Below, piece by piece: positions 21,079 through 31,973 of a DNA stretch of 64,000 bases. Below the pieces are notes generated by a model that was not told where the DNA came from, did not search any database, and saw nothing but the letters and a program-made list of their open reading frames with translations. The position numbers and the translations under genes are program-made. Every line of letters begins with the position of its first letter. Position 1 is the stretch's first letter. Source of the DNA: Inquilinus sp. Marseille-Q2685 (lineage in GTDB: Bacteria; Pseudomonadota; Alphaproteobacteria; DSM-16000; Inquilinaceae); contig NZ_CAKAKL010000007.1 of assembly GCF_916619195.1 (NCBI RefSeq), forward strand, positions 186,001-250,000, read 5' to 3'.

Positions 21079-21263
21079 AGGCCTGCTCCTGTGCTCGGGT
21101 TCGCTGAGATTAGGACGTTCGAGCACGCGAAAAAGAGTCACCCGTGGCAGAAGGGTCACCTGGCCTTATTCTTCCTCCGCACTGCGCAATCCGTAATTGC
21201 GAATGATTTGCATTTGAAATAAGGTCGCGCCGGTCTCGTTTCGGAGGTGGAATCAGGGTCGGA
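21079..21263. promoter_or_regulatory. Divergent control region with Fur-like inverted repeat
   Basis: The AT-rich stretch at 21190-21225 contains TGCGAAT-G-ATTTGCA at 21198-21212, an inverted repeat of two 7-base halves around one base with one mismatch. This 7-1-7 layout is that of Fur boxes, which fits iron control of the downstream sigma/sensor/receptor genes. The likely ribosome site of the sigma gene is the AGGG or GGAGG close to the ATG at 21264. No match to a defined alphaproteobacterial Fur consensus was established here. Confidence 0.5.
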
Positions 21264-21779
21264 ATGGCCGAGCAGGATCGGTCCTCGCTGCTGGCGCTGC
21301 TGACGCGCCATTACCAGGAGCTGCTGCGCCATCTGACCCGTCGGCTGGGCAGCGCCAGCGCGGCGGCGGACGTGGCCCAGGACACCTGGCTGCGGCTGCG
21401 CCGGGCCGAGACGGTGCCGGAGCTGCAGAACCCCCAGGCCTATCTGTTCCGCATCGCCGACAACCTGGCGCGCGACCGGCTGCGCAGCGACGCCGCCCGC
21501 GCCCGCACGCTGCTGCCGGCCGAGCTCGGCGACGACCGCCCTTCCGATGCGCCGGGGGCGGAGTCGGTGCTGGACCACCGTCAGCGGCTGCAGGTCCTGG
21601 AACGCGCGGTGGCCGAGCTGCCGCCGAAATGCCGGGAGGTGTTCCTGCTGCACAAGTTCGACGGGCTGGGCCATGGCGAGATCGCCGCCCGGCTCGGCAT
21701 CTCGCGGAGCATGGTGGAGAAGCATGTGATGAAGGCCCTGGCCCATTGCCGCGACCGCATGCGCGACCTGCTCGACTGA
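21264..21779 (+). CDS. FecI-like ECF sigma factor
   Basis: A 171-residue iron-starvation-type ECF sigma factor. Region 2 reads YQELLRHLTRRLGSASAAADVAQDTWLRLRR..PQAYLFRIADNLARDRLR, and region 4 reads AVAELPPKCREVFLLHKFDGLGHGEIAARLGISRSMVEKHVMKAL, both characteristic of the FecI group. It lies directly upstream of a FecR-like sensor and a TonB receptor with an STN domain, the classic cell-surface signalling module. In that module FecR relays receptor occupancy to free the sigma, which activates the receptor operon. A Fur-like box lies upstream. Confidence 0.93.
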   Translation: MAEQDRSSLLALLTRHYQELLRHLTRRLGSASAAADVAQDTWLRLRRAETVPELQNPQAYLFRIADNLARDRLRSDAARARTLLPAELGDDRPSDAPGAESVLDHRQRLQVLERAVAELPPKCREVFLLHKFDGLGHGEIAARLGISRSMVEKHVMKALAHCRDRMRDLLD

Positions 21780-21847
21780 TGGAAGGTGAGGGAAGGGCCT
21801 GGCGGATTCGTCATTCCTGACGGGGACCGCCGCGAACGACCGAAGAC

Positions 21848-28443: not shown

Positions 28444-28486
28444 CGACCTTGCAAGGCGGTTCCATCGGTTGCGGAGCGTGGCCGTC
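28382..28486 (+). promoter_or_regulatory. Promoter region of the exporter-fold ABC pair, with palindrome
   Basis: A TTGACT hexamer at 28406-28411 could be a -35 element. Just downstream is the perfect palindrome TGACCG-C-CGGTCA at 28415-28427, in a position where a repressor (for example TetR-type) would block RNA polymerase. Upstream, ATTTGCATTT at 28391-28400 repeats a 10-base AT-rich string that also occurs in the Fur-like region at 21206-21215. The -10 element is not clear. Confidence 0.45.
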
Positions 28487-30213
28487 ATGATGATCAACCG
28501 GACGATGCTGTCCCTGGCCGGGCCGGTCGGGGGCGAGGTGGCGCTGGGCGCGGGGCTGGGGCTGGCCGTCACCGCGGCCAATCTCGGCCAAGGCGTGCTG
28601 CTGGCGCTGGTCGCGGGCGGGTTGCTGCAGGGGCGGGGCTGGCGCCGGTGCTGCCCTGGATCGGCCTTCTGGCCGGCCTCGTGCTGCTGCGGGCGGGGCT
28701 GGTCTGGCTGGCGGAGCTGGCGGCCCAGCGTGCCGCGCAGAGGACCAAGCTGGCGCTGCGCCGCCGCCTGTTCGAGCGGCTGCTGGAGCTCGGCCCCGGC
28801 TTCGCCACCGAGCGGCGGACCGGCAAGATCCAGGCGACGCTGGTCGGCGGGGTTGAGGCGGTCGAGGCCTATGTCGCGCGCTACCTGCCCTCGGTGATCG
28901 TCGCGGTGCTCGGACCGCTCGCCGTGCTGGTTTGCCTGGCCGCACTGGACCTCACCTCGGCGGCGATCCTGGCGGTCTTCGTGATCCAGGCGCCGCTGGT
29001 CAACTCGCTGTGGCTGGCCTGGCGCATGCCGCGGTCGACCGGCATCTTCGCCGCCATGGCCGTGTTCGGGGCCTTCCTGCTGGACAGCATTCAGGGGCTG
29101 GTGACGCTGAAGGCGTTCAACGCCGTCGGCCGGCGGCGGCAGGAGCTGTCGGAGCACGCCGCCAGGCTGCGCCGGGAGTCGATGCGCGAGCTCAGCGTCA
29201 CGCTGATGCGCGACGGGGTGACGACGCTGTGCTCGCTCGGCGGCGTCGCCGCGGTGCTGGCCTGGGGCGCCTGGCGCGTCTCCGCGGGGGAGCTGGCGCC
29301 GGTGGCGCTGCTGACCGCGCTGTTCCTGGCGCGCGAGGCGTTCCGGCCGATCGAGCGCATGGACCAGGCGCTGCACGCCGCCTGGGCCGGCATCGGCGCG
29401 GGCACGGAGATCGCGGCCCTTCTGGCGGCGCAGCCGGCGGTGATCGACGCGCCGCGCCTGCCGACCCCGGCGCCGCTGGCCGCCAACATCGCTTTCGACC
29501 GCGTCGGCTTCGCCTATGACGGGGCGGAGGGGCCGACGCTGGACGAAGTCTCGCTGCGGGTGGAGGAGGGTGAGCTGGTGGCCCTCGTCGGCCCGTCCGG
29601 CGCCGGCAAGTCGACCGTCGTCGCGCTGCTGCTGCGCTTCTTCGACCCGGCCCGCGGCGGCATCCGGGTCGGCGGCATCGACATCCGCGACCTGCCGCTG
29701 GCGGCGCTGCGCGAGAAGATCGCCGTGGTGTCGCAGGACACCCATCTGTTCCCCGGCACGGTCGCCGACAACCTGCGCATCGCCAGGCCGGAGGCCGGTC
29801 TGGATGAGCTGGTGGAGGCCGCCCGCGCCGCCAACGCCCATGATTTCATCCAGGCGCTGCCCGAGGGCTACGACACCGAGGTGGGCGAGCGCAGCGCGCT
29901 GCTGTCCGGCGGCCAGCGCCAGCGCATCGCCATCGCCCGGGCGCTGTTGAAGAACGCGCCGATCCTGGTGCTGGACGAGGCGACGTCGAGCGTCGACGCC
30001 GCCAGCGAGCGGGCGATCCAGGACGCGCTGGAGCGGCTGTTCCGCAACCGCACCACCCTCGTCATCGCCCACCGCCTGTCCACCATCCGCAAGGCCGACC
30101 GCATCCTGGTGCTGGACCAGGGCCGGGTGGTGGAGGAGGGGCGGCACGAGGCACTGCTGGCGGATGGCCGCCGCTACGCCCGCCTTGCCCAGGCCCAGGG
30201 AGCCGTCGCATGA
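28487..30213 (+). pseudogene. Exporter-fold ABC transporter (CydD/YbtP-like half-transporter) with frameshift
   Basis: The expected product is about 575 residues: a membrane domain followed by an ATPase with Walker A GPSGAGKST, signature [15 protein letters not shown] and Walker B ILVLDEATSSVD. The N-terminus (MMINRTMLSLAGPVGGEVALGAGLGLAVTAANLGQ) is in one frame. From about 28639 (LAPVLPWIGLLAGLVLL) the coding continues in another. The G-rich run at 28630-28638 is short by one base for continuous reading, so a one-base deletion or sequencing error is likely. GERTG-like and ARYLP motifs resemble CydD. Translation from an internal GTG (28648) would lack the first membrane helix. The second half-transporter gene overlaps by four bases. 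Confidence 0.8.
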
Positions 30214-31973
30214 CCACGATCGAAGTCACCGCCCCGCGCTATCGTTTGCGTGACCTGCTGCCGGTTGCTGCCCGCCGGCCCGCCGGGCTGGCCCTGACCG
30301 CCCTCTGCGGCACGCTGGCCCAGTTGGGCATGCTGGCGACGCTTGCCATTGGTGCCTGGCTGGTCGGCGGCGCCATCACCGGCACGGCCGGGCCGATGCT
30401 GCAACCGGCGGCCTGGGGCCTCGCCGCCGGAGTTCTGGTGACGGCGCTGGCCCGCTGGGGGCAATCGTATTTCGGCCACGACCTGGCCTTCGCCCTGATC
30501 GAGCAGCTGCAGCTCGGCTTGTTCGACGGGCTGGAGCGCGCCGCGCCCGGCTATGTCCTGGGCCGCCGCACCGGCGACCTGGCCGGCACCGCGACCGGCG
30601 ACGCCGAGATGCTGGAGAGCTTCTTCGCCCATCTGCTCGGCGACTATGTCGGTGCCGCGCTGGTGCCGCTGACGGCGCTGGTCGCGCTGGCGCTGATCCA
30701 TCCGCTGCTGGCGCTGGTGCTGGCGCCGTTCCTGCCGCTGGTGGCATCGATCCCGTTCTGGCTGGCGCGCCGCGCCGGGCAGCAGGGCGAGGCGCTGCGG
30801 GCAGAGCTCGGCCATCTCAACGCCGAGGTGGTGGAGGGCGTCCAGGGCCTGCGCGAGCTGGCGATCTTCGGCCATGGCCGGCGCTATCTCGACCGGCTGA
30901 TGCGGCGGACGGCGGACCTCCACGGCCACCAGCTGCGCTACGGCGCGCGGGCGGGGCTGGAGGCGGCGGCGATCGACATCCTGCTGGCGCTGGCCGTGCT
31001 GGCGGTGCTGGCCGTCGGCGCCAGCCTCGTCGCCCGGGGCGCGCTGCCGATGGCGCTGTTCCCGCTGGCGCTGGTGCTGGCGGGCGCCGCCTTGGCGCCG
31101 ATCACCCAGGTGACCGAGACCGGCCGCCAGCTCGGCGCGCTGCAGGCGGCGACGCAGCGGGTGCTGACCATCCTGCACCAGCGGCCGCAGGTCGAGGATC
31201 GCGGCCGGGCGCGGCCGGAGGAGGCGCTGGCGCCGGAGGTGCGGTTCGAGGGCGTCGCCTTCGGTTACGACGAGGAGCGCGGGCCGGTGCTGCGCGGCTT
31301 CGACGCCATCCTCGCCGCCGGCGAGACGGTGGTGCTGGTCGGCCGTTCCGGCGCCGGCAAGAGCACCTGCGCCAGCCTGCTGATGCGGTTCTGGGACCCG
31401 GCGGCCGGGCGCATCACCCTGGGCGGCCACGACCTGCGCGACCTGCCGCTGTCGGAGCTGCGCCGGCGCGTGGCGATCGTGCCGCAGGACGTGCATCTGT
31501 TCGACCTGCCGGTCGCCGACAACATCCGCCTCGGCCGGCCGGAGGCGACGGAGGAGGAGGTGCGGGAGACGGCGCGCCTGGCCCAGGCCGACGGCTTCAT
31601 CCGCGCTCTGCCCCAGGGCTACGGCACGCGCTGCGGCGAGCGCGGCGCACGGCTGTCCGGCGGCCAGCGCCAGCGCATCGCCATCGCCCGCGCCTTCCTG
31701 CAGAACGCGCCGGTGCTGGTGATGGACGAGGCGGTGTCGAACCTGGACACCGAGAGCGAGCAGGCGCTGCAGGCGGCGGTGCGCGAGCTGCGCCGCGGCC
31801 GTACCACGCTGATCATCGCCCATCGCCTGTCGACCATCCGCAGCGCCGACCGGATCCTGATGCTGGAGGGCGGCCGCATCGTCGAGACCGGCCGGCACGA
31901 GGAACTGCTGGCGCGCGGCGGCCCCTATGCCCGGCTGGTCGCGGCCGCGGTCGACGGGGTGCTGGAGGCGTGA
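30210..31973 (+). CDS. Exporter-fold ABC transporter (CydC/YbtQ-like half-transporter)
   Basis: A 587-residue half-transporter. About six hydrophobic helices lie in residues ~20-300 ([75 protein letters not shown]). The ATPase has Walker [10 protein letters not shown], signature [15 protein letters not shown], Walker [13 protein letters not shown] and H-loop [10 protein letters not shown]. It probably pairs with the preceding half-transporter (ATGA overlap). Sequence style is CydDC-like, but no cytochrome bd genes are nearby. Proximity to the siderophore receptor and binding protein raises a YbtPQ/IrtAB-like siderophore-import role, which is inference. Confidence 0.88.

Follow-up and report, generated by a model that had tools for sequence, protein, structure and literature searches.

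Which transporter takes the substrate of a siderophore receptor across the inner membrane when no permease is encoded beside it? The question is raised by a stretch of 64,000 nucleotides (hereafter the window) of Inquilinus sp. Marseille-Q2685, contig NZ_CAKAKL010000007.1, in which a block encoding a FecI-like sigma factor, a FecR-like sensor, a TonB-dependent receptor and a periplasmic binding protein (PBP) is followed by two exporter-fold ATP-binding cassette (ABC) half-transporters, here named ABC1 and ABC2. A sequence-only reading had proposed that this pair stands there instead of FecCD-type permeases; its observation of the window was partly confirmed, and its interpretation as a whole is partly supported. 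From the comparisons described here we conclude that the pair is, by its sequence, a sister family of CydDC and not CydDC itself. Our best explanation of the locus, to which we give about an even chance, is that the pair pumps a metal chelate or siderophore under iron control, probably for export or recycling, and that the neighbouring receptor set borrows its permease.

Absence of a local permease

The gene content that had been read for the receptor block (unit 1) was borne out by domain profiles: an extracytoplasmic function (ECF) sigma factor, a protein with a FecR domain and a receptor with an STN domain lie in one row, as expected for Fec-type cell-surface signalling, and are followed by a helical-backbone PBP. 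The sigma factor exceeds the cut-off of the NCBIfam sigma70-ECF model and stays under that of the FecI subfamily PRK09651 (89 bits, cut-off 185), and the FecR-like protein does not reach the cut-off of the FecR equivalog model (181 bits, cut-off 385). The receptor scores 434.5 bits with the siderophore receptor model TIGR01783, above its cut-off, and 799.9 bits with PRK14050 (cut-off 884). The PBP gene begins with GTG inside the end of the receptor gene, an overlap of 4 bp. Its product scores above the cut-off of the ferrichrome/ferrioxamine B model NF010649 (395 bits, cut-off 374), and the best solved-structure relative of the PBP is 6b2x.

The lack of FecCD and FecE in the locus also stood: the profile search gave no FecCD match above the cut-off in or near the 64-kb window, and no stand-alone ABC ATPase was found among the window proteins scanned. 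A match below the threshold (24.7 bits, cut-off 26.5) lies at 57829-58512 in an open frame of 372 amino acids (aa). The genome as a whole has eight FecCD matches, of which the seven above the cut-off all lie outside the window, and the idea of an organism without FecCD was rejected on these grounds. Two of the seven are the halves of one FhuB-type gene on contig C3 (710.9 bits, cut-off 554), whose neighbours encode FhuF, a FhuD-like protein (193 bits, under the cut-off of 252), a receptor and a nonribosomal peptide synthetase (NRPS).

The genome encodes five PBPs of the window type, of which only that at C1:1626092 adjoins FecCD and FecE. Two further ones adjoin a receptor only, and none of the gene types searched for was found within about 8 kb of the fifth. 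One of the two receptor-linked PBPs forms, with FecI, FecR and receptor, a second row of this kind on the contig of the window (L065, G000:C7:273103-278412), which is also without FecCD. For three of the four permease-less PBPs no exporter-fold ABC match was found near by either. PBPs of this type thus usually have no permease of their own beside them, and a permease-less receptor locus is not strange in this genome. A shared permease has been described in rhizobia, where foxA-fhuF-fhuP are reported to use the HmuU/HmuV permease system (PMC8822346). The pair can hence not be said to replace FecCD permeases, given that these are present elsewhere in the genome and that only one PBP in five has a local one; against the proposal speak also a related genome in which the contig of the pair has no receptor block, and Azospirillum lipoferum, in which the pair stands beside FecCD and FecE.

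Relation of the ABC pair to CydDC

The two overlapping half-transporters proposed earlier were recovered as an ABC_membrane plus ABC_tran pair, with a gene overlap of 4 bp at 30210-30213. A break in the ABC1 frame at about 28630-28660, with the frame restored from about 28657, had been overlooked; it may reflect a genuine mutation or may have arisen in the assembly. In the congeners G001, G003 and G004 ABC1 is intact, with 573-575 aa. When solved-structure sequences were searched with the pair, generic ABCB proteins ranked first.

The likeness to CydDC that had been noticed is real, and it remains under the curated cut-offs. Intact ABC1 orthologues score 404 and 411 bits with the NCBIfam CydD model (cut-off 435) and the window ABC1 part 390, and ABC2 scores 308 bits with the CydC model (cut-off 329). 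Two trees were made, a quick tree (78 rows) and a careful tree (40 rows); of the transporters suggested for this comparison they include CydDC and E. coli YbtPQ. ABC1 groups with CydD (support 99 in the quick tree, 100/100 in the careful one) and ABC2 with CydC (94 and 88/88). In the careful tree true CydD and true CydC each form a 100/100 branch that excludes the pair, so that a place inside true CydDC, which the earlier reading had considered, was looked for and not found. YbtP and YbtQ fall elsewhere in both trees, on long branches that make their own place unsure. In the careful tree the members of the ABC1 family do not form one branch that excludes CydD, fused members falling beside it. 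The identification of the pair as YbtPQ was rejected on tree position, and its identification as CydDC on the missed cut-offs, the tree position and the true CydDC encoded elsewhere in the genome, at C1:60135-63427 (CydD 629 bits over 435, CydC 474 over 329). One cydA is at C5:335224, far from the pair, which shows no linkage to cydAB.

The residues around the heme of CydDC were also compared. According to PMC13337084, the heme iron of E. coli CydDC is held by CydC H85 and CydD H312, R81 and R136 lie near the heme propionates, and F247 stacks; R136 is named there in one place as a residue of CydD and in another as one of CydC, and in our alignment only CydC has an arginine at that position. 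Residues were counted from alignments of all 85 loci, three of which end before the positions and were not scorable. Both axial histidines are kept, CydC H85 as ABC2 His90 (80/85) and CydD H312 as ABC1 His297 (79/85), and they occur together in 78 of the 85 loci. CydC R136 is replaced by histidine (ABC2 His141, 81/85) and CydC D131 by glutamate (ABC2 Glu136, 81/85), and the full signature of three histidines and one glutamate is present in 78/85; at least one of these residues is missing in each of L134, L137, L171 and L191. The remaining heme contacts are lost in the family: R81 has become mostly S, M, A or T, T88 mostly A, and CydD F247 mostly L. Among 78 loci (a tally that left out the four Inquilinus loci, L134, L171 and L191; median identity 32%) ABC1 His297 is the most conserved position of the membrane domain. 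Other exporters carry a histidine at the CydC H85 position in 4 of 11 cases and at the CydD H312 position in none of 11.

These results bear on the suggestion that the pair is a second CydDC, whose export of heme or thiol would serve the assembly of cytochrome bd or redox processes in the periplasm. The sister position and the two axial histidines are what such a transporter would show, and yet the genome has its true CydDC on C1 and its one cydA on C5, both far from the pair, and CydC R81, T88 and R136 and CydD F247 are not kept; we regard this suggestion as very improbable.

Two relatives are worth recording beside this family. The fused member L211 (G071:C60:97199-98761) passes the CydC cut-off (333 bits, cut-off 329) and yet carries the signature of the fused family, so that its assignment to CydC may be mistaken; the six other CydC rows keep R81 and R136. 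The Inquilinus genome of the window also encodes a relative in which the two halves are joined in one protein (L068, G000:C5:271734-275189; 42-44% identity to the pair). The ABC2-like half of this relative has the same His/Glu signature, and similar matches occur in other members of the class.

Regulation and linkage of the two units

Between the blocks lie an APH-fold phosphotransferase gene and two small genes on the opposite strand (sA and sB, Table 1), and the ABC pair (unit 2) therefore has its own promoter; we propose that the receptor block and the pair are separately transcribed neighbouring units. The APH gene adjoins the pair in G001, G003 and G004 and on contig C400 of G002. The two small genes (27478-28372) are kept beside ABC1 in congeners.

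The linkage of the pair to the receptor block, which the earlier reading had made a point of comparison, was found in some relatives and not in others. The whole row, from receptor block to ABC pair, is contiguous in G001 and G003, and G002 is consistent with it, split over two contigs. In the metagenome-assembled genome G004, APH-sA-sB-ABC1-ABC2 lie on a contig from which FecI, FecR, receptor and PBP are all absent; a short-chain dehydrogenase/reductase homologue lies beyond APH, at the expected place of the receptor block, and the best PBP matches anywhere in G004 do not exceed 57%, compared with 90-91% in G001-G003. Neither the receptor block nor the ABC pair was found in G005. The pair is thus partly tied to the receptor block.

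A 10-base string, ATTTGCATTT, had been reported upstream of both blocks. It is indeed upstream of both, and the 64-kb window has exactly two copies of it (21206 and 28391); allowing one mismatch there are still two matches against 0.22 expected, a number reached in 3 of 100 shuffles. The two copies do not occupy an equivalent place, and the string as a single operator was rejected, given that its register differs between two Fur-like boxes in which it represents a repeated TGCAAAT half-site, on the plus strand in the fecI box and on the minus strand in the ABC box. For scoring, a matrix was trained on the fecI and receptor/PBP promoters only, leaving out the ABC sites, and the number of sites behind the box consensus is small. 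The fecI box has the top matrix score of the window, being itself a training site. The ABC1 box scores 19.2 in the window (reached in 2 of 200 shuffles), 27.2 in G001 and G003 (0 of 200) and 18.8 in G004 (2 of 200). Elsewhere in the window a site at 39914-39932 on the minus strand scores 24.7, above the ABC1 box, on the upstream side of the minus-strand frame 38484-39761.

A pattern scan of the genome (7.29 Mb, up to two mismatches) gave nine sites, and the reversed control none, though the scan is partly circular, the ABC1 box of the congeners having been taken into account when the pattern was composed. Exact matches occur only before the fecI genes of the window locus and of the second FecI-FecR-receptor-PBP row, and one-mismatch matches at ABC1 and at C16:56432. 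A stricter palindrome of 15 bases has three places in the genome, only one of which is clearly in an iron promoter. Taken together, these motifs suggest that both blocks are likely under iron control, with Fur as the putative protein that binds both boxes.

Table 1. Features of the receptor block and of the ABC pair in the window
Feature	Position	Strand	Basis
Fur-like box before fecI (TTGCGAATGATTTGCATTT)	21197..21215	+	Kept in G001 and G003; exact pattern match
FecI-like ECF sigma factor, 171 aa	21264..21779	+	Sigma70_r2, Sigma70_r4_2
FecR-like anti-sigma factor/sensor, 316 aa	21848..22798	+	FecR and DUF4880 above cut-off
TonB-dependent siderophore receptor with STN, 843 aa	22867..25398	+	STN, Plug and barrel above cut-off
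Helical-backbone PBP of FhuP (ferrichrome/ferrioxamine B) type, 368 aa	25395..26501	+	Peripla_BP_2
APH-fold phosphotransferase family gene	26593..27462	+	PF01636 above cut-off
Small conserved gene sA	27478..27885	-	No Pfam or NCBIfam match; homologues in congeners
Small conserved gene sB, divergent from ABC1	27944..28372	-	No Pfam or NCBIfam match; homologues in congeners
Fur-like box before ABC1 (ATGAGAGTTGATCGCATTC)	28374..28392	-	Kept in G001, G003 and G004
ABC1, CydD-side exporter-fold half-transporter	28487..30213	+	ABC_membrane and ABC_tran; tree; His of transmembrane helix 6 region = CydD H312
ABC2, CydC-side exporter-fold half-transporter, 587 aa	30210..31973	+	ABC_membrane and ABC_tran; tree; His90, Glu136, His141

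Role of the pair and comparison with known systems

A scan of named genomes, from which the best 80 of 235 matches were kept, gave 79 loci with relatives of the pair in Pseudomonadota, Actinomycetota, Chloroflexota, Bacillota and methanogens; with two plasmid loci these make the 81 loci of the neighbourhood counts. FecCD lies within 5 kb of the pair in 34 of them, against a chance expectation that we estimate at 1-2% from the eight FecCD matches in 7.29 Mb, the loci not being independent. An Opp-type permease is found within 6 kb in 11/81, and a TetR regulator and a TonB receptor within 5 kb in 12/81 and 9/81, respectively; the 19 Pseudomonadota loci, four of them from Inquilinus, include eight with a TonB receptor, seven with TetR and one with FecCD. 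Among plasmids the pair has its best matches in A. lipoferum 4B, at 60% along 92% of ABC2, and in Burkholderia multivorans, at 58%. The A. lipoferum row encodes an NRPS, an AMP-binding protein, an AraC regulator, receptor, PBP, FecCD, FecE, ABC1 and ABC2. Among the 25 of 76 plasmid records listed no streptococcal or staphylococcal relative was found, and the tally includes two Staphylococcus records.

A second arrangement, represented by B. multivorans, B. paludis and two Rugamonas (L107/L131 and L154/L155; biosynthesis gene names read by eye), consists of AraC, a CoA-transferase-like protein, AMP-ligase/methyltransferase, ABC1, ABC2, a TonB receptor and a major facilitator superfamily (MFS) protein with a weak RhtX/FptX match (69 bits, cut-off 356). 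This row presumably resembles quinolobactin clusters. L107 and L131 contain boxes of textbook appearance, although the matrix scores before these Burkholderia and Rugamonas operons are weak (reached in 5 to 36 of 200 shuffles). Boxes precede the pair also in L121 (0 of 200) and L119 (2 of 200). In both of these loci the pair lies between a Fur-like box and a methyltransferase gene, with a DUF3419 protein in addition in L119, and an ABC ATPase and a binding-protein-dependent (BPD) type permease are encoded in the vicinity. In another genus of the family one row (L064, G012:C279) comprises a receptor, a lone exporter-fold half-transporter, PBP, FecCD and an ATPase, and this half-transporter has histidine at the two ABC2 positions and glycine and glutamate at the other two.

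It could be argued that ABC1-ABC2 imports a ferric siderophore in the manner of YbtPQ or PchHI, perhaps taking it from the PBP. The pair is linked to the receptor-PBP block in congeners and has a Fur-like box before it, and the Burkholderia and Rugamonas clusters, with receptor, pair and MFS protein and no FecCD match, are like fyuA-ybtPQ-ybtX. PchHI of Pseudomonas aeruginosa is reported to be an exporter-fold importer that interacts with FepBCDG (PMC10846271), and PchHI with FptX and FepBCDG gives a precedent; together with EqbHIJ/EqbKL (PMC3672683) it weakens the earlier claim that a route combining an exporter fold with a binding protein would be unusual. Import is nonetheless unlikely in our judgement, because the pair branches with CydDC and not with YbtPQ, FecCD/FecE stand beside it in A. 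lipoferum and many other loci, G004 keeps it without the receptor block, and receptor-PBP loci elsewhere in the same genome have no such pair.

A comparably low probability is given to the view that the two blocks are chance neighbours, the pair being a TetR-type efflux pump or serving some other pathway unrelated to the receptor. It would account for the TetR gene adjoining the closest relatives, for the DUF3419 protein and methyltransferase beside L119/L121, for the separation of the blocks in G004, and for the pair having its own promoter and divergent genes between the blocks; it does not account for the Fur-like box kept before the pair in four Inquilinus genomes, nor for the recurrent siderophore and FecCD neighbourhoods.

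The explanation that we prefer is a pump under iron control beside a receptor set with a borrowed permease. A putative Fur-type regulator would repress both units. Unit 1 would sense and import a ferric siderophore, of which a hydroxamate xenosiderophore is the most probable kind, with the STN receptor signalling via FecR to FecI and the PBP delivering its cargo to a FecCD-type permease whose gene lies in another part of the genome. ABC1-ABC2 would bind a metal chelate or siderophore, the metal via histidine, and would move it across the inner membrane, more probably outward than inward; siderophore export, recycling of the desferri-siderophore and relief of a metal chelate are the outward options. 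According to PMC3672683, EqbHIJ and EqbKL are encoded in one equibactin locus, EqbHIJ is needed for equibactin iron import, and deletion of EqbKL did not block import and lowered the supernatant activity twofold. The full importer that stands beside the pair in other loci, the kinship of the pair with exporters and these genetic data favour outward movement of chelator or chelate.

Several observations weigh against this explanation. FecCD is near the pair in only one of the 19 Pseudomonadota loci (L106), the other 33 cases being outside the phylum and mostly in Actinomycetota. About seven of the closest relatives outside the genus (L117, L118, L120, L123, L124, L126 and L130, about 58-65% identical to ABC2) adjoin a TetR regulator, and only L126 of these has a TonB-receptor match near by; the matrix scan found no Fur-like box before the pair in L117, L118, L122, L124 and L130. 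The box-pattern site at C16:56432 has no recognised iron gene beside it, no siderophore biosynthesis gene was seen in the window, and ABC1 may be defective in the window genome. Compared by profile as a whole protein, ABC2 reaches 370 with MsbA and YbtP and only 325 with E. coli CydC, and the branch of ABC2 with CydC has a support of only 88/88. The reported role of PchHI as an importer also speaks against a firm claim of export.

A broader proposal, which we put forward tentatively and with the balance somewhat against it, is that ABC1-ABC2 represent an undescribed, widespread family of heterodimeric exporter-fold transporters in which the heme pocket of CydDC has been rebuilt into a metal site of three histidines and one glutamate, acting in bacteria and methanogens as the metallophore or chelate partner of FecCD- and Opp-type importers, for example by re-exporting the stripped chelator. 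The family may be little described, and undescribed in the open-access literature searched. If the proposal is true, proteins annotated merely as 'ABC transporter' would provide a missing step of metal uptake, the disposal or reuse of the chelator, and the family would be a natural experiment in the conversion of a heme site into another metal site, with the same two axial histidines and the Arg-to-His change kept across phyla. For receptor-PBP loci in general, the lack of a permease need not mean a new import route.

Among known systems, the window locus shares with FecIR-FecABCDE the FecI, FecR and STN receptor for transmembrane signalling and differs from it in having no FecCD/FecE, and its receptor is on the FhuA/FoxA side, with 80.8 bits for the FecA model (cut-off 1100). 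The rhizobial foxA-fhuF-fhuP locus is closer in that it has a receptor and a PBP of the same NCBIfam model (that of S. meliloti is 47.8% identical to the window PBP) and no permease of its own; unlike it, the window locus includes FecI-FecR signalling and is not accompanied by fhuF. With CydDC the pair shares the heterodimeric exporter fold, ABC1 corresponding to CydD and ABC2 to CydC, and both axial histidines, and is set apart by its separate branch, scores below the NCBIfam cut-offs, the change of the propionate arginine to histidine, the loss of other heme contacts and a linkage to metallophore genes instead of cydAB. YbtPQ, IrtAB and PchHI are likewise pairs of exporter-fold half-transporters in iron or siderophore loci, and the Burkholderia context resembles ybtA-ybtPQ-ybtX-fyuA; E. 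coli YbtPQ, the pair among these that was compared by sequence, has another place in the tree. Streptococcus equi is not known to have an outer membrane receptor. The EqbKL/EqbHIJ arrangement of this species (PMC3672683) is similar in its locus layout, in that an exporter-fold pair stands beside a ferric-siderophore-like importer.

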